Shown: one piece after another, positions 5,461 through 52,504 of the stretch
Layout: every line of letters begins with the position of its first letter
How positions within the stretch are numbered: the stretch's first letter is position 1
Assembly: GCA_947494205.1 (NCBI GenBank)
Contig: CANLUH010000002.1
Location: forward strand, 186,001-250,000
DNA: 64,000 nt
Direction: 5' to 3'
Source of the DNA: an uncultured Flavobacteriaceae bacterium
Lineage (GTDB): Bacteria; Bacteroidota; Bacteroidia; Flavobacteriales; Flavobacteriaceae
The notes under the pieces: model-generated
Told to the model about the DNA's origin: nothing
Databases searched by the model: none
Seen by the model: only the letters and a program-made list of their open reading frames with translations
Made by a program: the position numbers and the translations under genes

Positions 5461-7041
5461 ATGAAGAAAATTACTATTTTATTATTCTTATTAACAGCTA
5501 GTTTTGCATTTGCACAACCAGCAACAAATTCAACGCCACCAACAAATAATGCTGTAGACGTTATTTCAATATACGGCAGTACCTATTCTAATGGTGTTAC
5601 TAACTATGATCCAAACTGGGGACAATCTGGACATACTCAGGTGAATCCTTCATACGATCCCGGAACAGGGAACGTTATATTAGCATATCCTAACTTTAAC
5701 TACCAAGGTACGGAACTGGCAGCAGTAAATGCTTCAGCAATGGAATATTTGCATGTAGATATATGGACTGCAGCAGATCCTATGGCAACAGATATACAAG
5801 TAAGCCCAATAAATAATGGAACAGGAGCAGGAGAAACACTGGTTTCCATAGTATATACATCTGGTACATGGACCAGTGTAGATTTACCAATAGCTAGTTT
5901 TACAGGAATGACATGGGATAGTGTTTTCCAAATGAAATTTGCAGCAAACGGAGCAGGAAGTACAGTACCCGTTGATATTTATTTAGATAATGTTTATTTC
6001 TGGAAAACACCAACAGCAGCGGGAACAGATGCTACTTTAAGCGACTTACAAGTAGATATGGTAACTGTAGCTGGTTTCTCTTCAATAACAGAGGATTATT
6101 CAGTAGAGTTACCTATGGGAACAACTGTTGTACCACAAATAACATTTGTTGAAACTACAGATCCTACAGCGACTACAGCTATTACTCAAGCTTCAGCTAT
6201 TCCAGGCGACGCAACTGTTTTAGTAACAGCTCAAAATGGTACTACAACAAAAACATATACAGTATCATTTTCTGAAGCAGTACAAACTGCACCAACAAAT
6301 AATCCAGCTGCGCCAACTGTAGCTGCTGCAGATGTTATTTCTATATACGGCAGTACGTATTCAAATGGAGTAACAAATTATGATCCTAACTGGGGGCAAT
6401 CTGGACATACACAAGTAAATGCAGCATATGATCCAGGAACAGGAAATGTTTTATTAGCTTACCCTAACTTTAATTATCAAGGAACAGAATTAGCAGCAGT
6501 AGATGCTTCTGCTATGGATTTTTTACATGTAGATATATGGACTGCAGCAGACCCTATGGCTACAGATATACAAGTAAGTCCAATAAATAATGGAACAGGA
6601 GCTGGCGAAACACTTGTTTCTATAGCATACACGTCAGGTACATGGACTAGTGTAGATTTACCAATAGCTAGTTTTACAGGAATGACATGGGATAGTGTTT
6701 TTCAAATGAAATTTGCAGCAAACGGAGCAGGAAGTACGGTGCCTGTAGATATCTATTTAGACAACGTTTATTTTTGGAATGATCCTACATTAAGTACTGA
6801 AGACTTTTCTATAGGTACATTTAATGTATTTCCAAATCCAACACAAAATACATGGAATATTAACGCAACACAAAAAGTTAAAACAGTTGAAGTATTTGAT
6901 GTTTTAGGAAAACAAGTGATGAGTTTAGAACCAAATTTAGAAGAAGTCATTATTGATGCTTCAACATTAAATACTGGATTATATTTAGCAAAAATCACTA
7001 CAAATTCAGGAATTAAAACAATTAAACTTGTAAAAGAATAA
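5461..7041 (+). CDS. secreted tandem-repeat carbohydrate-binding-like protein with T9SS sorting domain
   Basis: 526 aa. The order is: signal peptide (1-18, ends AFAQ); repeat 1 (33-181); a cadherin-like beta-sandwich resembling PF12733 (about 185-270, context TLSDLQVDMVTVAGF); repeat 2 (291-439); a C-terminal type A T9SS sorting domain (about 455-526, starts FNVFPNPTQ). The two 149-residue repeats are almost identical, from DVISIYGSTYSNGV to DNVYFW. They look like beta-sandwich carbohydrate-binding modules with many Trp, Tyr and Asn residues. There is no catalytic domain. Location after the glucan operon suggests a surface or released glucan-binding protein, but it is preceded by 288 bp and probably has its own promoter. 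Binding is inference; export by T9SS is well supported by the tail. Confidence 0.8.
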   Translation: MKKITILLFLLTASFAFAQPATNSTPPTNNAVDVISIYGSTYSNGVTNYDPNWGQSGHTQVNPSYDPGTGNVILAYPNFNYQGTELAAVNASAMEYLHVDIWTAADPMATDIQVSPINNGTGAGETLVSIVYTSGTWTSVDLPIASFTGMTWDSVFQMKFAANGAGSTVPVDIYLDNVYFWKTPTAAGTDATLSDLQVDMVTVAGFSSITEDYSVELPMGTTVVPQITFVETTDPTATTAITQASAIPGDATVLVTAQNGTTTKTYTVSFSEAVQTAPTNNPAAPTVAAADVISIYGSTYSNGVTNYDPNWGQSGHTQVNAAYDPGTGNVLLAYPNFNYQGTELAAVDASAMDFLHVDIWTAADPMATDIQVSPINNGTGAGETLVSIAYTSGTWTSVDLPIASFTGMTWDSVFQMKFAANGAGSTVPVDIYLDNVYFWNDPTLSTEDFSIGTFNVFPNPTQNTWNINATQKVKTVEVFDVLGKQVMSLEPNLEEVIIDASTLNTGLYLAKITTNSGIKTIKLVKE

Positions 7042-7312
7042 ATTACCAACTCTACTAAAGAGGTGTGTGTTTTTCCCTAACTAAAATGCATGCCTCTATT
7101 ATTTTATTTAAGTTTATTAAAAATATGAAGGACTATTCTTATGTTTTTTAATAGAGGTTTAGAAGTTGATTATTAGATGTTTCCATAAGATTTTATTAAT
7201 AGACTATATAAAGTTGTTAAATAATAATTATTGCTTATATTGCAAGAGTAAAAATATTTAAAAATTATTTTTGCTAACTAAAGACTTTTTTTGAGGGACT
7301 GAGTCTTTATAT

Positions 7313-7342
7313 AAAACCATCCAAAAATTTGGATGGTTTTTT
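7313..7342 (+). terminator. intrinsic terminator
   Basis: A 10-bp stem AAAACCATCC/GGATGGTTTT with an 8-nt loop, ending in a run of six T. It lies about 270 bp after the secreted binding-protein gene, so it may end a long 3' UTR or a separate small RNA. Confidence 0.75.
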
Positions 7343-7451
7343 AGTTATAATACAATCTTTTTAATATAACTAGAATACACTATTACTCATAAAAGGTACC
7401 ACTTTACTCAATATAACTTTTCTATATAAAATATATTTCACATATTTATAT

Positions 7452-7507
7452 ATGTCTAAGTATATGGTACAATTATTGTGTATAATACTACAGACTTACT
7501 TAGACAT
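7452..7507. repeat. perfect 11-bp inverted repeat
   Basis: ATGTCTAAGTA at 7452-7462 is matched by its exact reverse complement at 7497-7507, with a 34-nt spacer. It lies in gene-free DNA. It could form a long-loop hairpin, or be a pair of binding sites or the ends of a very short element. Confidence 0.6.
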
Positions 7508-7738
7508 TAATATCTTAATTATTGGGTAATGTTTTATACAAAACGTGACCTATATAATAGAAGTATACATATAAAAGAAACTATACTTTAAAATAAGATA
7601 AGAATAATATTATTAAACATTAAAAACCTAGATTACTGCTTTTGTTAGTAAGATTTTTAACACATATTTATTAATGTTAACTAAAATAAATAAGTGCTTA
7701 TTCAGTTTAATAATAAAGCTATTAAAACAAATAAATTA

Positions 7739-7755
7739 GAGTATAAATTATACTC
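7739..7755. promoter_or_regulatory. palindrome upstream of the 172-aa gene
   Basis: GAGTATAA and TTATACTC flank a single A, a perfect 8+1+8 palindrome, 24 bp before the GTG at 7780. It could be an operator or a leader hairpin. Confidence 0.4.
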
Positions 7756-7779
7756 TTTCCCCAAAACCCCTTTTATACT

Positions 7780-8298
7780 GTGACCGAGTTAAATAGAATA
7801 GATAATAATATTAATGGAGAATTACCAAAGGAAAATTATAATATAGTAATAGTAGAAAACATTATAAACCCTAAGGAAGAATTAGCACAGTTTAAAAAAA
7901 CAATACAAGTTTTTTTAAACCATAAAGAATTGAGTATTTACAGTATTACATGGGAAAAACTATTACCAAAACCATTAGTCGCATTTACCAAACAATTGGA
8001 TAACGAAGATTATCATAAAGATGATTTACTGTTTCCTAGTATAGATATCTTAATTTATAATTTAAGATATTTAAGGACTTGGGAGTGGTATAGTTCTCAA
8101 CTTACTGAAACAGGATTTAAACTAATAGTAAACGGAGGGTTTAAAACACAGTTTTTACAAATGTTGCATCATCAAGGCATTTCGCATAGTAATCTGTTTA
8201 TAGTTAAAAATAAACAACTATATCCAACAAGAGCAGGAACAGATGTTTTAACTTATAAAACATGGAATAGAGAAACATTAGAGTTAAAAAGGAACTAA
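7780..8298 (+). CDS. unknown protein, 172 aa, GTG start
   Basis: I do not recognise this family. The only plausible start is GTG at 7780; no in-frame ATG precedes it. The protein is mixed alpha/beta with no signal peptide or membrane segment. A patterned stretch, FPSIDILIYNLRYLRTWEW near residue 87, followed by GFKLIVNGGFKTQFLQML, suggests a compact domain. It stands alone between two AT-rich spacers at the head of an accessory region. Codon use resembles the neighbours. Function unknown. Confidence 0.6.
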   Translation: MTELNRIDNNINGELPKENYNIVIVENIINPKEELAQFKKTIQVFLNHKELSIYSITWEKLLPKPLVAFTKQLDNEDYHKDDLLFPSIDILIYNLRYLRTWEWYSSQLTETGFKLIVNGGFKTQFLQMLHHQGISHSNLFIVKNKQLYPTRAGTDVLTYKTWNRETLELKRN

Positions 8299-8482
8299 AT
8301 TATAAAAAGGGTGTTTTTCCTGTACAAAAAACAGTGATATAACCCATAATAAAAAACGTGATACACCCCTTAATATAGTATAAAATTTAAACTAACTTAA
8401 CTTGCTAAATCACTTTTAGATATACTTATAAAATAGTAACTTTAAAGAAGAAAATAATATAAAACCCTTTTAATCAATAATT

Positions 8483-8989
8483 ATGAAACAAATTAAAATA
8501 AGAACAATGCTTGTAACCAATGCTCTAAAAAAACAAACTAGCATAGTTTTAGTGGCTTTGGTAATGTTATTAACGACCTCTTGCGATTCCTTAAAAACAG
8601 CTGTTTACGATCAGCATTCTTACCAGAAAAGTGTAGAAATTAAAGTGGAAGCCTCTAGTTTAATGGATAAAGCAACGACAGCCTATTCAGATAATTTAGT
8701 AGAAATTGAAGCTTTAGATAAAGAGATTCAGAAGATAGTAGAGTACGAAAAAAATAAGCCCAACAATGAGATTACTTATGCTATGTGGAAAATATTAAGC
8801 AATAAAGAAAAAAATCTATTATCAGGATTTTTTAAACGTTGGAAAGAAAAAGGGCAACTATCTCAGTTCTTTATAACGGAAGCTAAAGCTCAAGTATTGG
8901 AAGCTATGGATTTATTAATACAATACGAAGGTAAAAAAGACAAAGAGTCTAAAGACAAGTTACTAGACATTATAACAAGTAACAACTAA
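8483..8989 (+). CDS. unknown lipoprotein, helical
   Basis: 168 aa. A hydrophobic N-terminal segment ends in the lipobox LTTSC (Cys34), so the mature protein should be a membrane-anchored lipoprotein. The first Met (8483) is used here, though Met9 gives a more normal signal length. The mature part is highly charged and helical (residues about 45-165), with no motif that I recognise. It is followed after 37 bp by a small helical protein and then a patatin-like membrane enzyme on the same strand. This looks like a small accessory cassette, which is inference. Confidence 0.65.
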   Translation: MKQIKIRTMLVTNALKKQTSIVLVALVMLLTTSCDSLKTAVYDQHSYQKSVEIKVEASSLMDKATTAYSDNLVEIEALDKEIQKIVEYEKNKPNNEITYAMWKILSNKEKNLLSGFFKRWKEKGQLSQFFITEAKAQVLEAMDLLIQYEGKKDKESKDKLLDIITSNN

Positions 8990-9026
8990 CAATCAAACTA
9001 TTAATTAATAAAAACACAATACAGAT

Positions 9027-9353
9027 ATGGATTTCGAAGCATTATTAAAAGACTTAAAAGCATCAATATTAGGATTGTTTGGAGAGAAGTGGGATGATTT
9101 AAAAAAAGAGTCTAAAAAAGATGTAGAACAATTTTTAGCAGAAAGTAAAGTAAAACTGGAACGTTGGACTAAATTATTGGCTAATGGAGATATTACTTTA
9201 GACGATTTTGAATGGTTATTAAAAAGCCAGAAAGATTTGTTATTAATGAAAGCATTACATAAAGCTGGTGTTAGTAAAATTAGTCTAGGACACTTCAAAA
9301 ATAAAATTATAAAAACAATAGTAGATACTGTTAAAACAATAGTATTAACTTAA
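9027..9353 (+). CDS. small helical protein, 108 aa, unknown
   Basis: 108 aa without a signal peptide. It is strongly amphipathic and helical throughout; the N-terminal half is rich in Lys and Asp (KWDDLKKESKKDVEQFL) and the C-terminal end is hydrophobic and basic (KNKIIKTIVDTVKTIVLT). The gene lies between the lipoprotein and the patatin-like gene, with a strong terminator just after it. It could be a peripheral membrane protein or a lipid-binding partner of its neighbours. No family was recognised. Confidence 0.6.
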   Translation: MDFEALLKDLKASILGLFGEKWDDLKKESKKDVEQFLAESKVKLERWTKLLANGDITLDDFEWLLKSQKDLLLMKALHKAGVSKISLGHFKNKIIKTIVDTVKTIVLT

Positions 9354-9384
9354 AATAGTAAGAATATATAGTAAATAAGTATTT

Positions 9385-9430
9385 AAATTAACGTGATAGT
9401 GTAGTGTCGCTTTCACGTTAATTTATTTTT
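9385..9430 (+). terminator. strong hairpin terminator
   Basis: A perfect 12-bp stem (9385-9396 with 9413-9424), 16-nt loop, then ATTTTT. It ends the lipoprotein/small-protein unit and lies 22 bp before the patatin-like gene, so that gene needs read-through or its own promoter. Confidence 0.75.
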
Positions 9431-9451
9431 ATACCCCAAAAAATAATCTAT

Positions 9452-11815
9452 ATGAATATAATAATGTCATTCTTTAATGGTTTTGGCATCTGGTTTAAGG
9501 TGTTAATTTCAGAGTTACTTAATAATATTATTAGTGTGCTATTAGTAGCATTAATTTATTTTATGCTATGGTTCTTTCCGCAAACTTTAGATTTACTTTT
9601 GGTTTTAAATCAGAACAGTGCTATTAGTATTTGGGAGGTTTTTACTTTAGAAGTTCCATTGTATTTCTCATTGTTAGTCATTATTTCTTTTTTCATTTGG
9701 AATGCGCCAAAGTATTTCTACAGGGCAAATTATTCACAAATTACACTTAAAAACATTTTAAAGTTTAGTCCTACAAAACACTATGCAACAATAACAAAAA
9801 GTAGTAAGTATAGTTATAATTGTAAATATCATGTTAGAAAAGTATTGCCAAGAGTTTTAGGCTGTTTAGTCTTATTTGTATCTGCATTTGCCATTTTAAA
9901 TGCGATGGAGTTGTTTGATATAGAAAACAATTTAAGTAATTTATTAAATCCATCAAACACATTAGTAATTATTGCAGTAGTACTATTATTGCTATTAGAA
10001 TATAATATTTATAGTTTTTTAAGACGATTAGTACGTAAGTTGCCTAAACGTAATTATATTGTAGTAGGCGCTATCTTTTTATTATTCATTTTTATTTTGG
10101 GACTTGGAGCAGCTAATAATCAAGCAGAAAAGGATTTAATATTATTGTTTTATTCTAACTTATCATTAGCGTTAATTTTCTTCATTTTATCATTCAATAC
10201 TAAAGATTTATTAACGCAACGTACTAAACCTATTTTCTATGGTGGTATTATTGCTTCTGGTGTATTAGTATTGTTAGTGTCGCTCATTTTTAATATAAAA
10301 CCAGATATCGCAATGCTTATAAATCCATTATCGGTATTACTTATTTGTTTAATGGCTTTATATCTTATTTCTTTTGTATTTGTATTTATAGGTAAAAAAA
10401 TACAATTTCCATTATTTACATTTGTTGTTATTATTGGGTTGTTATTATCTAAATACAATGCTAATAGCGATAGCTTTAATCATTACGAATTAGATACTAC
10501 AGTAAGGAGTAATCAAGATCGAACACTTTTAAAAGCTTATGTTAAAGATTGGATAAATAATAGAAAAACTAAAATAGAACAAGCTAAGGATGCGTCTTAT
10601 CCTATACTATTTGTGTCTTCAGAAGGAGGCGGGTCTAGAGCAGGATTATGGTCGTTTTTAATACATAGTTATTTATCTGAAAACTCTAATAATAAATATT
10701 ATACAGACCATTTATTTTCGTTAACAGGAGCTTCTGGTGGAGGCGCAGGAAATGCAATGTATTTTGCTGCTGCACAGCAAGCAGAATTAAATAATAAAAC
10801 GGTAGATTATAAACACAATAATGCCAAATTTAAATATAAGGCCAGTACTATATATTCTAAAAATTATTTATCAACCTCAATAGTAGGATTGCTAGGAAGA
10901 GATTTTTTTAAAAGTATACTCAGTATTTTTCCTTTCGATAATAGGGGAGAGCTATTACAAAACGAATGGCAAAATGCATACAACGAAGTCTTTAAATCTA
11001 ATAGTAACGATTTAGAAAAGGAAGTATTATCTTTTTATTCTAAAAGTGATACCTCTGGATTTGTTCCGCCATTATTATTTATGAATAGTACACACGCCCA
11101 AACAGGTAAGTACAGTGTGATTAGTCCTGTAGATTTTAGCGATTCTAAATTATTTTCTGGTTACTTTGATTACATAGATAAAATAAGAACGATAAAAGGA
11201 AAAACACATTCTGTAAAATTAGTAGAAGCCATGCGTATTAATGCGGCATTTCCTTATCTAACACCAGCAGGAGAAGTTAAAGATGTAGGCTTATTTGGAG
11301 ACTCTGGCTATTATGATAATATTGGAGGAACCGTAACTACAGCCTTACAATATGTTTTTAAAGAAGTATTAAATGAAACACCAGAATTTAGTACTATTAA
11401 AAGTAAAATAAAGCTACAAAGTGTTTTAATTTATAGTGATTTGGATAATGAAAGTTTAGAAGGGGAGCAGTATAAGCCCATTTCTCAGTTAGATGCACCT
11501 TTAAAAATATTATTAAATGTTAGATCCGGGCATACAAAAGAGCAAATAGCTAAGTTAGATGAAGTACCATTAAAACTTAGACGTTCTTATATAATTCCTG
11601 GAACTAAAACGAGTACAATGCTTCAAGCACGTATTAGAAATTTAAAAGAAGAGCAAAGCGATAGTATTAAACCCATATTACCTTTAGGACGTTATTTGTC
11701 TAGTACAGCAATAAAAGCCATGGAAAAGAGTTTAGAATTAAAGGACGTTAAATCTAAATTAGATAAATTATTAATTTACGAAACCGTTTCTAAAACAAAA
11801 GATACTATTAAATAG
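9452..11815 (+). CDS. patatin-like phospholipase with N-terminal membrane domain
   Basis: 787 aa. The N-terminal half (about residues 10-345) has a series of hydrophobic membrane segments. The C-terminal half is a patatin domain: the oxyanion motif GGGSR (392-396), the nucleophile elbow GASGG (Ser428) and the dyad Asp617 in GDSGYYDNIGG. These are the parts needed for a serine/aspartate lipid acyl hydrolase. The enzyme domain should lie at the membrane face and act on phospholipids or lysolipids. Patatin effectors occur in CBASS defence, but no nucleotide cyclase is present nearby, so a defence role is only a weak possibility. Substrate is unknown. Confidence 0.82.
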   Translation: MNIIMSFFNGFGIWFKVLISELLNNIISVLLVALIYFMLWFFPQTLDLLLVLNQNSAISIWEVFTLEVPLYFSLLVIISFFIWNAPKYFYRANYSQITLKNILKFSPTKHYATITKSSKYSYNCKYHVRKVLPRVLGCLVLFVSAFAILNAMELFDIENNLSNLLNPSNTLVIIAVVLLLLLEYNIYSFLRRLVRKLPKRNYIVVGAIFLLFIFILGLGAANNQAEKDLILLFYSNLSLALIFFILSFNTKDLLTQRTKPIFYGGIIASGVLVLLVSLIFNIKPDIAMLINPLSVLLICLMALYLISFVFVFIGKKIQFPLFTFVVIIGLLLSKYNANSDSFNHYELDTTVRSNQDRTLLKAYVKDWINNRKTKIEQAKDASYPILFVSSEGGGSRAGLWSFLIHSYLSENSNNKYYTDHLFSLTGASGGGAGNAMYFAAAQQAELNNKTVDYKHNNAKFKYKASTIYSKNYLSTSIVGLLGRDFFKSILSIFPFDNRGELLQNEWQNAYNEVFKSNSNDLEKEVLSFYSKSDTSGFVPPLLFMNSTHAQTGKYSVISPVDFSDSKLFSGYFDYIDKIRTIKGKTHSVKLVEAMRINAAFPYLTPAGEVKDVGLFGDSGYYDNIGGTVTTALQYVFKEVLNETPEFSTIKSKIKLQSVLIYSDLDNESLEGEQYKPISQLDAPLKILLNVRSGHTKEQIAKLDEVPLKLRRSYIIPGTKTSTMLQARIRNLKEEQSDSIKPILPLGRYLSSTAIKAMEKSLELKDVKSKLDKLLIYETVSKTKDTIK

Positions 11816-47451: not shown

Positions 47452-50400
47452 ATGGATAAAACTAACACTGGGCTTGCCATGGCTATTGGTAATTCGCCAT
47501 TAAACTACGATATGGCTCTCGTTTCTGTTAATACACAAGGAACTTTAGGCACATTAAATCAACAAGTATTAAAAGAATACGATTATAAATTAAACCCAAT
47601 AAATAGTATTGCACTAAGTAAAGGTTACGAGCTATTACAGCAAAAAGGATTAAAACCCATTTTATTTGTAGTAACAGTAGGGCAAGGGAATACAGAAAAT
47701 AGCTTGATTAACAACCTTACAAACGCTATAGATAATAATATAAGTATATTAGAAGGTAAACGCGTTTGGGTGCCTTTAATGGGCACTGGAGCAGGTGGTT
47801 TAAGCTTTAAGCAAAGTTATGAGATTACTGTAAATATTCTTAATAAGTTTTCATCTAACGCGGATTTTGTATTATCATTTCCAGAAAATAAAGAAGGGGT
47901 TGAATTGTATAATGAATTAAGAGCACAAAATTACGATGACCCATCTAGTAGTGTTGTTGAAGATGATTTAGCTACAAAAGGAGGCGGGTTAGGTGACCTT
48001 GTAAGTAAAGGATCTTCAATACCAGAAACAAAACAAGTAACAAGCACAGATACACCAGAAAAAGTAACTAAAAAAGAAACAACAGAACCTTTAGAACCTG
48101 TTTTAAAAGAACTATTGCAACGCAATTATTATTTAGCAGAGTTTAATGACCTTGAAGAACACGGTATTTTAAACTATATATTTTCTGGAGTTTGGGAAAA
48201 TAGAAGTAATAATAAAGTTACTAAAAGAACTATAAATTCTGTGAAAGCAGGAGATGTTTTATTGTTACTCTATGGAGCCGAAGCAGAAAATACTAATGTT
48301 TTACAAGTGTACGGCGTTGGTATTGTAAAAGAGAATGAAAAAAATGGAACTACATTAAATGTTGCTTGGCATAAGTTCGATGCTAGGTATTTAATAGATA
48401 GTACTATAAAGTTTCAAGGTTTTACTAGAATTCTTCCAAGAGATATTAAAGATATTTTAAAGAAGTATTTAAAAATCATACCCAATTTTCAGGAGAAATT
48501 AGAAGAAGTAAATAGAGCTACATACCAAGCGCTAAAAGAAGAGCCAGAAGACACGCCAAAAGAGGAAGACTTTAATAAACAATCCAACATCACTACAATA
48601 GCAGGCTTAGTTAGCGATGCCGATTCTGGAGACGACTATTTAGAAATAGATAAAGATGTTAATGCGTTTGCGCGTGTTATTTCAGCAAAAAACTTTATTC
48701 CACCATTAGCAATAGCTTTATTAGGTAAATGGGGATCGGGGAAGAGTTTCTTTATGCGAAAGTTAAAAGAACAAATTCAAAGCTATTCTAAAGACGCCGA
48801 GCAAGAAGTATATTGTACAGGTATAGCACATGTTCATTTTAATGCATGGTCCTATGTAGATTCTAATTTATGGGCAGGCATTATTACTAAAATATTTGAA
48901 GGCTTACAAGAGTACATTAGTAATCAAAGTAAAGCCGATGCACAGAAAAAAGAAATAGAAAAAATACTTTTAGAACAATTAAGCTCTAGTAAGCAACATT
49001 TTCAAGAATTAGAGCAGCGAAAGCTTGATATAGATGAGAAAATTGAAAGTTTAAAGGATAAAAAAATAGCTTCGGAAGCCTTATTAGAAGCAAAAATTGA
49101 AGACATAAAAAAGAAATCAATTAAAAACCTATTTAAGCAAATAGACCATAAATTTAATGTTAAGGAACAAGTACAAACAGCATTACAAGCCAATGATTCT
49201 TTTAACCAATCTACAGAAGAATTTAGTAAAATAATACCCGAAAAATATTGGCAAAGTCCAGATGAGCTTTATACTAAATCTAAAACAGCATTAACTTTTA
49301 TAAAAACCTTTTTCGGCAAGTCGGTTTGGAAGAATAATCTGTTATGGCTAGCTATAGTTTTAATAGTAGTAATAGGTGTTCCTATTGTTATGCAGTTTAC
49401 AGAGTATAAAATAAAGAACATTGATTTCAAAATAGCTTCTAAATATTGGTTTGCAATATCTTTAGTAGGAACCATACTACTCAGAATTTATAAAACAGCA
49501 AGGCATTTACACCCTTTAATAGCATCGTTTTGGAAACTAAAAGAAGCTTATATATTAGAAAAAGAAAATGCTTTATTCAAATTTAAGCAAGAAGAGAAGG
49601 CGATAACACTTCAAATTGAAAATTATAAGCAAAACATACAGCAACTAAATCTTAAAATAGGAGAGGCGGAAGCACAGAAAAAAGATATAGAATACCGTTT
49701 AGATAATACACATACAACCGAAGCGTTATTTAAATTTATAGAAAACCGCTCAACAAGCGATGATTATAAAAAGCATTTAGGTATTGTGTCTGTAATACGA
49801 AAAGACTTCGAAATTTTAAGTGATTTATTCACGGATCATAATACCGAATTAAATGAAGCAAAAACCAAAGAAACTTACGAAGCGTTTAGAAGTAAGTTCG
49901 AAAGACCTCTAGAGCGCATTATATTATATATAGACGATTTAGATCGTTGTACAGACGACCGTGTTATACAAGTATTGGAGGCTGTAAATTTATTAATGGC
50001 GTATCCGTTATTTGTAGTTGTAGTAGGAGTAGACCCCCGTTGGGTAAAAAACGCATTAATTAAAAAGCACGAATTACAATTTGGAGGCAATGGTGAAGCT
50101 GCCAAGTTAATAGAGCGCGTAGAACCATCAGGTTATTTAGAAAAAATATTTCAAATACCATTTCATTTACAAGAAGCATCAGATGATAACGTGAAATACA
50201 TGTTAAAAACCTTAGCCGAATCTAATCCGAATTTAAAAATAGTAGTAAAAGAAGACGATAAAGACGTTGATACAGGAGAAATAGATTCCGAAGTTATACC
50301 AAACCCAAAAACAAGTGTGAAGGAGGAAAGTACAACTTACAGTTCTGTAAAAGATATAGAAAATGAAGATCTAGAGGTACCACCGCAAGAAACTAGCGAA

Positions 50401-50844
50401 GAGGTTATAGCGTCTTTAAAATTTGTAACCAAGGAAATAGAATTAATACAAGAACTCTCTAAAGTGCTTGGCGCAAACCCTAGAACCTTAAAACGTTTTG
50501 TAAATATTTTTAGAATAATAAAAGCTCATAAAGGCTTTAAATATTCTGAAGAAGCAAAAGACGAAGAGGTTTTAGCGATTATATTTTTAATAGCATTGCC
50601 AATTGGTAAATATAAGTGTTTAGCAAAACCGTTTGAAACCTTTTTAAACGCAGAAAATAAACCTAATGAAAAGACTTTAAATCACTTTTTAACTAAAGAA
50701 TCTGCAATAGCAAAAGAAAGAGAAGCACAAGAAGCGTTGTTAACGGTATTTAAAGCTAATGCTAGTAAATTATTAAAACAAGACAAAGCTATATTTAAAA
50801 AGTACAATGCATTTATAAAACGCTTTACCTTTAATGGTGTTTAG
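47452..50844 (+). CDS. macro-like/PUA-like/KAP P-loop NTPase
   Basis: 1130 aa, several parts. Residues 1-165 look like a macro (ADP-ribose-binding) domain: DMALVSVNTQGTLG, ILFVVTVGQG and VWVPLMGTGAGGLSF (about 104-119). Residues about 224-345 look like a PUA/EVE-type domain (YYLAEFNDLEEHGI, AGDVLLLLYG, VYGVGIVKEN). From about 390 comes a KAP-family NTPase: Walker A GKWGSGKS (425-432), Walker B LYIDDLDRC (Asp828, Asp829, Asp831), with long coiled segments and two membrane helices (about 628-650 and 665-682) inserted between. KAP proteins with membrane insertions are common in phage defence. The macro and EVE parts are judged by pattern only. It is about 400 bp before two nuclease-like genes. 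Confidence 0.82.
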   Translation: MDKTNTGLAMAIGNSPLNYDMALVSVNTQGTLGTLNQQVLKEYDYKLNPINSIALSKGYELLQQKGLKPILFVVTVGQGNTENSLINNLTNAIDNNISILEGKRVWVPLMGTGAGGLSFKQSYEITVNILNKFSSNADFVLSFPENKEGVELYNELRAQNYDDPSSSVVEDDLATKGGGLGDLVSKGSSIPETKQVTSTDTPEKVTKKETTEPLEPVLKELLQRNYYLAEFNDLEEHGILNYIFSGVWENRSNNKVTKRTINSVKAGDVLLLLYGAEAENTNVLQVYGVGIVKENEKNGTTLNVAWHKFDARYLIDSTIKFQGFTRILPRDIKDILKKYLKIIPNFQEKLEEVNRATYQALKEEPEDTPKEEDFNKQSNITTIAGLVSDADSGDDYLEIDKDVNAFARVISAKNFIPPLAIALLGKWGSGKSFFMRKLKEQIQSYSKDAEQEVYCTGIAHVHFNAWSYVDSNLWAGIITKIFEGLQEYISNQSKADAQKKEIEKILLEQLSSSKQHFQELEQRKLDIDEKIESLKDKKIASEALLEAKIEDIKKKSIKNLFKQIDHKFNVKEQVQTALQANDSFNQSTEEFSKIIPEKYWQSPDELYTKSKTALTFIKTFFGKSVWKNNLLWLAIVLIVVIGVPIVMQFTEYKIKNIDFKIASKYWFAISLVGTILLRIYKTARHLHPLIASFWKLKEAYILEKENALFKFKQEEKAITLQIENYKQNIQQLNLKIGEAEAQKKDIEYRLDNTHTTEALFKFIENRSTSDDYKKHLGIVSVIRKDFEILSDLFTDHNTELNEAKTKETYEAFRSKFERPLERIILYIDDLDRCTDDRVIQVLEAVNLLMAYPLFVVVVGVDPRWVKNALIKKHELQFGGNGEAAKLIERVEPSGYLEKIFQIPFHLQEASDDNVKYMLKTLAESNPNLKIVVKEDDKDVDTGEIDSEVIPNPKTSVKEESTTYSSVKDIENEDLEVPPQETSEEVIASLKFVTKEIELIQELSKVLGANPRTLKRFVNIFRIIKAHKGFKYSEEAKDEEVLAIIFLIALPIGKYKCLAKPFETFLNAENKPNEKTLNHFLTKESAIAKEREAQEALLTVFKANASKLLKQDKAIFKKYNAFIKRFTFNGV

Positions 50845-50861
50845 TATGTTGAAGAGAAAAA

Positions 50862-50981
50862 CGTCAATTCGAGTATTTTGGCGTAATGCAATGAAGGCAA
50901 AAGGTGTCGAGAATAAGAGTTCTGTTATTAAACCTGTTCTCGATACAATTTTTTTATCAAAAAATCACTCGAACTGACGTC
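50862..50981. repeat. dispersed inverted-repeat element, copy 1
   Basis: About 120 bp bounded by CGTCAATTCGAGT (left) and ACTCGAACTGACG (right, reverse complement with one mismatch), with an inner TCGAGAA/TTCTCGA pair. Its first 41 bp recur at 51041 with one difference. It lies just after the KAP gene and may act as a terminator-like structure. Confidence 0.65.
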
Positions 50982-51040
50982 ATAGATAAAATGTTTTACA
51001 TTTAATTGTGTTTAATACGTTTATAATGTTTAAGGAAAAA

Positions 51041-51165
51041 CGTCAATTCGAGTGTTTTGGCGTAATGCAATGAAGGCAAAATGTATAGAGAATAGTTTTT
51101 TCATGGATGCATCTAATTCTCTATGCTTCATTCGTACCTTACGGTACACGAATTAACGAGATTTA
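51041..51165. repeat. dispersed repeat, copy 2 (partial)
   Basis: Bases 51041-51081 repeat 50862-50902 with a single A/G change. The right part differs: a GTACC-TTAC-GGTAC hairpin (about 51134-51147) and an imperfect CACGAATTAACGAG end. No coding frame. Together with copy 1 it fills the 400-bp gap before the restriction enzyme gene. Confidence 0.6.
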
Positions 51166-51245
51166 ATTTAAAAAACAATCTAAACCCACAACGAGTCCAT
51201 TTTATTAATAAAATAAAGTATTTTTAAGTTCTAATAGATAACCTA

Positions 51246-51872
51246 ATGAATTTTGTAACCACTGCTTTTAGGCATGCCGATGCTATTTTAATTCAAGATG
51301 AATTTGAAGAGCAATACAGCGATTTGTTAACTATTATTGATGGTATTTCTGATGATGATATTATTAATAAACATGAAAGTTATGGTGAAACTACTATAGA
51401 AAAAACACCCAAAAGCCTATCTGTAGCTATTAATGCTTTGCTAAAAGAACGCTTTGAAGCGAATGGATGGATTGGAGAATCAGGAATATTTCAGGATACC
51501 GAATACACAGGCGATACTTGGCGACTAGATTTTGCTAAAGACGATATTTCTGTTGAGGTAGCCTTTAACCATTCGTCTGTAATAGCGTGGAACTTAATAA
51601 AACCTGTTTTAGCAAGCGAATTAAATCATGTGCAAAAAGCCATTCAAACAAAAATAGGAGTAGTAATTACAGCTACAAATGCTATGCGAAAATTAGGCGG
51701 GTTCGATGGCGCTATTGGTACATACGAAAAATACTTAGACTATTTACCACCACTGCAAAATATACTAACAGTACCTTTATTAATCATTGGTTTAACACCT
51801 CCAGAAACTTTTAAAATAACACAAGAGCAAATTGCACCTAGAAAAAAGATAGGTAGAATAGAGCGATACTAG
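51246..51872 (+). CDS. BglII/BstYI-like restriction endonuclease
   Basis: 208 aa, about the size of BstYI and BglII. The catalytic region WRLDFAKDDISVEVAFNH (about 97-114) has the Asp and, nine residues on, Glu expected in BglII-type sites; the following Gln of BglII is Ala here. VIAWNLIKPVLASELNHVQKAIQTKIGVVI and GGFDGAIGTYEKYLDYL (shown in parts) also match the family. Members of this family cut at GATC-centred sites. No DNA methyltransferase is present in the window. A second nuclease-like gene starts 2 bp after the stop. Specificity and activity are inferred. Confidence 0.82.
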   Translation: MNFVTTAFRHADAILIQDEFEEQYSDLLTIIDGISDDDIINKHESYGETTIEKTPKSLSVAINALLKERFEANGWIGESGIFQDTEYTGDTWRLDFAKDDISVEVAFNHSSVIAWNLIKPVLASELNHVQKAIQTKIGVVITATNAMRKLGGFDGAIGTYEKYLDYLPPLQNILTVPLLIIGLTPPETFKITQEQIAPRKKIGRIERY

Positions 51873-51874
51873 TT

Positions 51875-52504
51875 ATGCAATCATATTATAAAAGAGATCT
51901 TAACAAAGAAGAAAAACTAGGCATATACTTAGACACAGTTTATAAAAAACTAAACCTAGAGGTTACTAGAATAACAGATACAAATAAACAGCATAGAGGT
52001 ATAGATTTAATATATACAAAGAATAACAAAGACATTTATATAGACGAAAAAGGACAATTAGACTATGTAAATAAAGAGTTACCAACCTTTACTTTTGAAT
52101 TATCTTATCTAAAACACAACACCTTAAAAAAAGGTTGGCTGTTTGATGTTAATAAACACACCCATTACTACTTTTTGGTGACAAGTATTAAAGCTAAAAA
52201 CCCTGAAAAGCACGATTACTACAATTGCAAAATTACCAGTGTTAATAGAAGTAAATTACTACAGTTTTTAAACAGCATTAACCTTACCGAACAACAGTTA
52301 GATATTTACCAAGATGCTATTAGAGCTGGGGAATACACAAAGAACAAAATTGAAATTAAAGAACTAGATATAAAAAAAGAAGGGTGTTTGTTTTTTTCTC
52401 CCCAATTAAATGAACGTTCCATTAATTTACAATTACGATTACAGTTTTTAATAGATTCTAAAATAGCAAAACAAATATACCCTTTAAGTGCACTACAGGT
52501 ATAG
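51875..52504 (+). CDS. PD-(D/E)XK nuclease-like partner protein
   Basis: 209 aa, no recognised family name. The N-terminal half carries a PD-(D/E)XK-like pattern: RGIDLIYTKNNKDIYIDEKGQ (Asp about 44, then Asp-Glu-Lys about 57-59), preceded by a helix with Leu/Glu and followed by FTFELSYL. The C-terminal half is helical and basic and ends in KIAKQIYPLSALQV. It starts 2 bp after the restriction enzyme gene, so the two are made together. It could be a second nuclease, a specificity or a regulatory subunit. Confidence 0.65.
   Translation: MQSYYKRDLNKEEKLGIYLDTVYKKLNLEVTRITDTNKQHRGIDLIYTKNNKDIYIDEKGQLDYVNKELPTFTFELSYLKHNTLKKGWLFDVNKHTHYYFLVTSIKAKNPEKHDYYNCKITSVNRSKLLQFLNSINLTEQQLDIYQDAIRAGEYTKNKIEIKELDIKKEGCLFFSPQLNERSINLQLRLQFLIDSKIAKQIYPLSALQV

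Follow-up and report, generated by a model that had tools for sequence, protein, structure and literature searches.

Here, we report a KAP-family ATPase that carries an N-terminal macro domain, an EVE/PUA-like domain and a membrane helix, and that belongs to a protein family whose recurrent partner is type I restriction-modification (R-M). The gene is encoded in a 64,000-nucleotide stretch of DNA (hereafter, the window) from an uncultured Flavobacteriaceae bacterium (GCA_947494205.1, contig CANLUH010000002.1, positions 186,001 to 250,000), where it is followed by two nuclease-like genes, P0002 and P0003. A preliminary description of the window had read the three genes as one candidate defence system. 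The occurrence of this macro/EVE/KAP family inside hsd operons is the notable finding of our analysis, and the three-gene system is unsupported. We hold with moderate confidence that the locus contains two adjacent but separate defence units, i.e., a guard-type membrane KAP ATPase and the restriction endonucleases (REases) of a split type II system, because the two nucleases look like ordinary restriction enzymes with a methylase elsewhere in the genome. In the open-licence literature we found no description of a KAP protein with macro and EVE domains in hsd operons.

The scan of the collection gave 27 loci with ATPase homologues and flanks of up to 10 kb, nearly all labelled Bacteroidota; the loci L155, L160, L002 and L003 are from the same genomes as L050, L063, L064 and L061 and were counted once. 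In six of the 27 loci (L049, L050, L062, L070, L073 and L074) the ATPase gene occupies the slot between hsdM and hsdS, at distances of -8 to +5 bp, and hsdR follows in four of these six. L158 is a seventh hsdM-KAP-hsdS case, with a spacing in the slot of at most 8 bp of gap or overlap. The hsd identities were verified with Pfam in L049 and L158, and those of the other operons were assigned by similarity to these two. Hsd genes are also found near the ATPase in L057 and L075, in different orders.

Identities within the set of seven operons are 70-90% for HsdM, 56-83% for HsdR, 36-53% for HsdS and 23-68% for the KAP protein; judged from the last two ranges, the KAP gene diverges about as fast as the HsdS specificity subunit. 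The HsdM of L158 is 87-90% identical to the HsdM of L049 and L050, while its KAP protein (6744-9884), which contains an EVE domain, a macro-like stretch and another N-terminal domain, is just 26-28% identical. A related arrangement is present in L156 (5844-9020), in which a broken hsdM is followed by a gene encoding a macro domain, an EVE domain, a second macro-like stretch and a divergent KAP domain; L158 and L156 represent another KAP type that has diverged strongly, with a core identity of about 25%. The N-terminal domain itself is swapped among relatives, being HU-like in L073, TIR in the plasmid relative L093 and WD40-like in L095 (by inspection), and L061, L063, L064 and L075 have different N-terminal domains that are possibly nuclease-like. 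Such an exchange of sensor domains would be typical of conflict systems. No full-length relatives of the ATPase were found in phages, and those on plasmids were just partial and distant. The plasmid KAP ATPase with the N-terminal TIR domain (L093, 6621-10115) has DUF4062, macro-domain, DarT and SIR2 genes as neighbours.

The domain composition of the window ATPase was examined region by region. Residues 1-380 were modelled with AlphaFold using 20 homologues, and the pLDDT is mostly 80-95 across residues 11-160. Foldseek matched this region to the macro domains of VEEV, macroH2A and YmdB (E ~5e-7, probability 1.00), with TM-scores normalised by target mostly in the range of 0.65-0.70, which supports a macro fold. 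Sequence profiles gave weak matches (Pfam Macro in 8 and ThsA_Macro in 2 of the 20 homologues); despite this, we consider the macro assignment right because of the AlphaFold and Foldseek support. The domain probably binds an ADP-ribose-type signal.

Searches of the second domain against Pfam EVE and against PDB sequences gave no match and nothing usable, and its assignment comes from a profile-profile comparison (hhalign) with the N-terminal domains of McrB (probability 99.7, E 3.2e-26) together with its predicted order of strands and helices, b-a-b-a-b-b-b-b in the AlphaFold model, which is the order of the EVE barrel (PMC7641849). A tblastn search with the EVE-like domain of a homologue retrieved McrB-type AAA ATPases on plasmids, and in all three that were examined the next gene is mcrC. 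By homology, the region belongs with the EVE-type readers of McrB, and by analogy with McrB its probable target is modified DNA or nucleic acid. An N-terminal domain of this EVE type is also found in a possibly McrB-like protein of L164 (6775-9769), which adjoins a type I R-M-like locus.

The remainder of the protein is a KAP NTPase (PF07693, 106 bits vs a cut-off of 20) with intact Walker A and Walker B motifs. There is a single strong membrane segment, inserted in the KAP domain between coiled-coil stretches, and a membrane helix inserted within the P-loop domain is a trait of the KAP family. The preliminary description had proposed a macro-like and a PUA/EVE-like domain in front of a KAP ATPase with a membrane part, and this architecture is borne out. 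Its layout of three open reading frames on one strand, with a gap of about 400 bp containing repeats, is likewise accurate. The coordinates are collected in Table 1.

Table 1. Features of the ATPase-nuclease locus (window coordinates) and the unlinked methyltransferase gene
Feature	Position	Strand	Evidence
KAP-family ATPase gene, 1130 aa (macro + EVE-like + KAP)	47452..50844	+	PF07693 E 2e-30
Macro domain, residues ~8-160	47473..47931	+	AlphaFold, Foldseek vs PDB macro domains
EVE/PUA-like domain, residues ~220-345	48109..48486	+	McrB N-terminal domain homology
KAP NTPase domain, residues 404-1024	48661..50523	+	Pfam KAP_NTPase E 2e-30; QatA models match same region
Walker A GKWGSGKS, residues 425-432	48724..48747	+	
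Membrane helix, residues ~624-654	49321..49413	+	Hydropathy; kept in homologues
Walker B region IILYIDDLDRC, DDLDR at residue 828	49918..49950	+	
Two 60-bp repeats in ATPase-P0002 gap	50856..50915 and 51035..51094	.	93% identical
BglII/BstYI-family type II restriction endonuclease (P0002), 208 aa	51246..51872	+	PF09195 E 2.5e-11
PD-(D/E)XK-like protein (P0003), 209 aa	51875..52504	+	Invariant residues, AlphaFold, weak Foldseek
Cytosine-C5 methyltransferase, intact	contig C7:95978-97255		

The window ATPase itself is solitary, outside any hsd operon, which sets it apart from its seven operon-borne relatives. A search of its genome, run there without a positive control, did not find an hsdM of the L049 type. 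Among the 26 KAP cores of a tree, the five rows nearest to the window ATPase are all hsd-linked, and the window copy is seemingly an orphan member whose closest relatives are operon-linked, in a grouping that is weakly supported.

Of the two nucleases, P0002 contains a restriction endonuclease domain (PF09195, Endonuc-BglII) above the cut-off, in agreement with the BglII/BstYI-like enzyme proposed earlier, and its conserved D95 and E104 align with acidic residues of the BstYI motif (1sdo). It differs from the BglII/BstYI enzymes in having Ala in place of Gln as the third residue of the E-V-Q motif, an Ala that its homologues carry too, and in that these homologues are paired with a cytosine-C5 methyltransferase (MTase) family; in two genomes they have a second, unrelated REase as well. 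P0003 has no family match. Because D44 and D57-E58-K59 are invariant in its homologues, its AlphaFold model is confident (pLDDT 93.6) and Foldseek gives weak matches to Hjc, RecU and I-Ssp6803I, we read it as PD-(D/E)XK-like, and it is likely the other REase of the R-M family to which P0002 belongs; the earlier assignment to this fold is therefore likely, short of proof. A DNA primase-like match of P0003 (E 0.05) is at chance level and was rejected.

A cytosine-C5 MTase gene adjoins 29 of 29 loci with P0003 homologues and four of four with P0002 homologues from a family search (33 loci), and along the whole sequence these linked MTases share 51-68% identity with the MTase encoded on contig C7 of the window genome, where no REase gene adjoins it. 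A cognate MTase, as expected for a type II R-M system, is thus present in the genome. In L082 (5182-7661), a region that looks mobile, the C5-MTase gene is found together with a P0003-like and a P0002-like gene (73% identical), and L082 is probably the unsplit form of the system. Since the REase families adjoin one C5-MTase family in all loci checked, and a member of this family is encoded here on C7, P0002 and P0003 are most likely two restriction enzymes of one type II system split over two loci, as judged from these homologies, and they would share the C7 MTase.

Concerning the surroundings, 66 bp separate the ATPase start from the end of the upstream gene, which encodes an FAD-linked oxidoreductase, and a symporter gene on the opposite strand lies downstream of the nucleases. 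The ATPase gene is separated from the nuclease pair by 401 bp, and P0002 from P0003 by 2 bp. The oxidoreductase is retained in both sampled congeners, with the similarity ending where its gene ends or slightly before (window 47385), and this break of synteny marks the edge of a lineage-specific region; the ATPase, both REase genes and a close copy of the C7 MTase were absent from the two congeners. The 60-bp repeat pair in the gap occurs nowhere else, and the gap also contains the motif AAAATCACTCGAACTGACG (50961-50979), part of a dispersed intergenic element with 35 genome matches at up to two mismatches. The gap repeats were rejected as a component of the system on the ground that the motif inside the gap is dispersed genome-wide, though the 60-bp pair is local.

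How the ATPase may act can be described conditionally. The macro domain would bind an ADP-ribose-type nucleotide and the EVE domain would read modified DNA or nucleic acid; the activated ATPase would then oligomerise through its KAP core, or hydrolyse, and drive the membrane part, and the disabled membrane would lead to abortive infection. Inside hsdM-KAP-hsdS-hsdR operons, the KAP protein would serve as a back-up or guard that fires once restriction has been overcome, like PrrC in EcoprrI. PrrC is a latent anticodon nuclease, encoded by an accessory gene in the EcoprrI type IC R-M operon, that backs up restriction (PMC3874165). The likeness is that of an accessory, potentially cell-disabling gene embedded in a type I hsd operon; the difference is that the product here is a KAP ATPase in which macro, EVE and membrane parts are combined, from a gene often found alone. 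ShdA is also located in type I R-M loci (PMC11090510). KAP ATPase cores are used in phage defence by QatA and PifA, the KAP NTPases in PADLOC, but the likeness of the window ATPase to QatA is a match of the core alone (67 vs the NCBIfam cut-off of 600 bits), and no QatBCD-like gene set was seen beside it when the neighbouring open reading frames (ORFs) were judged by inspection.

The defence context proposed in the preliminary description still stands, and what has to be given up is the joining of the ATPase and the nucleases into one system, in which the ATPase would sense modified DNA and direct or license both nucleases. The three genes are indeed adjacent on one strand, and one may argue that, with relatives of the ATPase tied to another restriction system, the pairing with type II enzymes could be a local swap. 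However, no homologue of either nuclease is found near the ATPase in any of the 27 loci (0/27), an absence that had been named beforehand as telling against the system; the nuclease homologues in the examined loci always accompany a C5-MTase and never the ATPase, whose own homologues recur with type I R-M, and a repeat-bearing gap of 401 bp lies between the ATPase and the nucleases. We rejected the single three-gene system on this co-occurrence and regard it as very unlikely. A related doubt concerns the REase pair, which might be a remnant in decay or might lack working methylation in this cell, in view of the unlinked MTase and the Ala that replaces Gln in the E-V-Q motif of P0002. We consider this improbable: both REase ORFs and the C7 MTase are intact, the latter at the identity to cognate enzymes given above, and the Ala is common to the MTase-linked homologues.

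For the ATPase, a stand-alone effector of the Thoeris kind comes into question, in which the macro domain binds an ADP-ribose derivative produced by a TIR enzyme encoded elsewhere, and the KAP and membrane parts cluster and break the membrane, with the type I R-M link being secondary. TM-macro ThsA is the precedent of a macro-gated membrane effector (PMC11204291), an abortive-infection protein that likewise combines a macro domain with membrane helices; the weak ThsA_Macro matches, the many solitary copies and the TIR domain in L093 itself point the same way. In L058 (8257-9865, Prolixibacter), two TIR-domain genes are directly upstream of the macro-EVE-KAP gene, one of them of the CAP12/Pycsar type (E 3e-40), and a TIR-domain gene adjoining the L158 member matches ThsB_TIR above its cut-off. 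ThsA, in contrast, has neither KAP nor EVE and is paired with ThsB, whereas TIR neighbours were seen here in just two loci; most loci are without a nearby TIR gene, there is no regular ThsB pairing, and inspection of the ORF list showed no TIR-like ORF adjoining the window ATPase. A Thoeris-like effector is accordingly a doubtful account. The EVE domain invites a further one, that the ATPase is a modification-dependent motor like McrB without its own nuclease, reading modified phage DNA through EVE, translocating or remodelling it with the KAP core and passing it to HsdR or other nucleases. In McrB and McrBC type IV restriction, a homologous EVE-type reader is fused to a P-loop NTPase (PMC7641849, PMC11090510), and the insertion into nuclease-encoding operons and the HsdS-like rapid divergence would fit. 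The window ATPase has a KAP domain rather than the AAA GTPase of McrB, carries a membrane helix and a macro domain in addition, has no McrC-like partner, and its family includes solitary copies without a nuclease, so that we find this account unlikely.

Returning to our own reading, of two separate units with the ATPase as a guard, several points weigh against it. The majority of the 27 ATPase loci have no hsd genes, so there must also be a function that does not depend on type I R-M. The branch that groups the window ATPase with the hsd-linked copies is not well supported. The REase and MTase genes are unlinked in this genome, so it is their relatives that suggest a functional pairing.

Beyond the locus, we tentatively propose, as a possibility short of even, that hsdM-KAP-hsdS-hsdR constitutes a four-gene Bacteroidota restriction type, in which type I restriction is guarded by a rapidly diversifying membrane KAP ATPase with interchangeable sensors (macro, EVE, HU-like and others) that brings about abortive infection when it receives an ADP-ribose or modified-DNA signal; the window copy and other solitary ones would be escaped or independent effector versions. 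One protein here unites three immunity modules known separately, i.e., a nucleotide-sensing macro domain, a modified-base reader and a KAP membrane ATPase, and ties them to type I restriction. If the guard function is true, the PrrC idea would also apply to a fast-evolving, Bacteroidota-wide family, and the way that restriction systems provide their own back-up could be tested directly.

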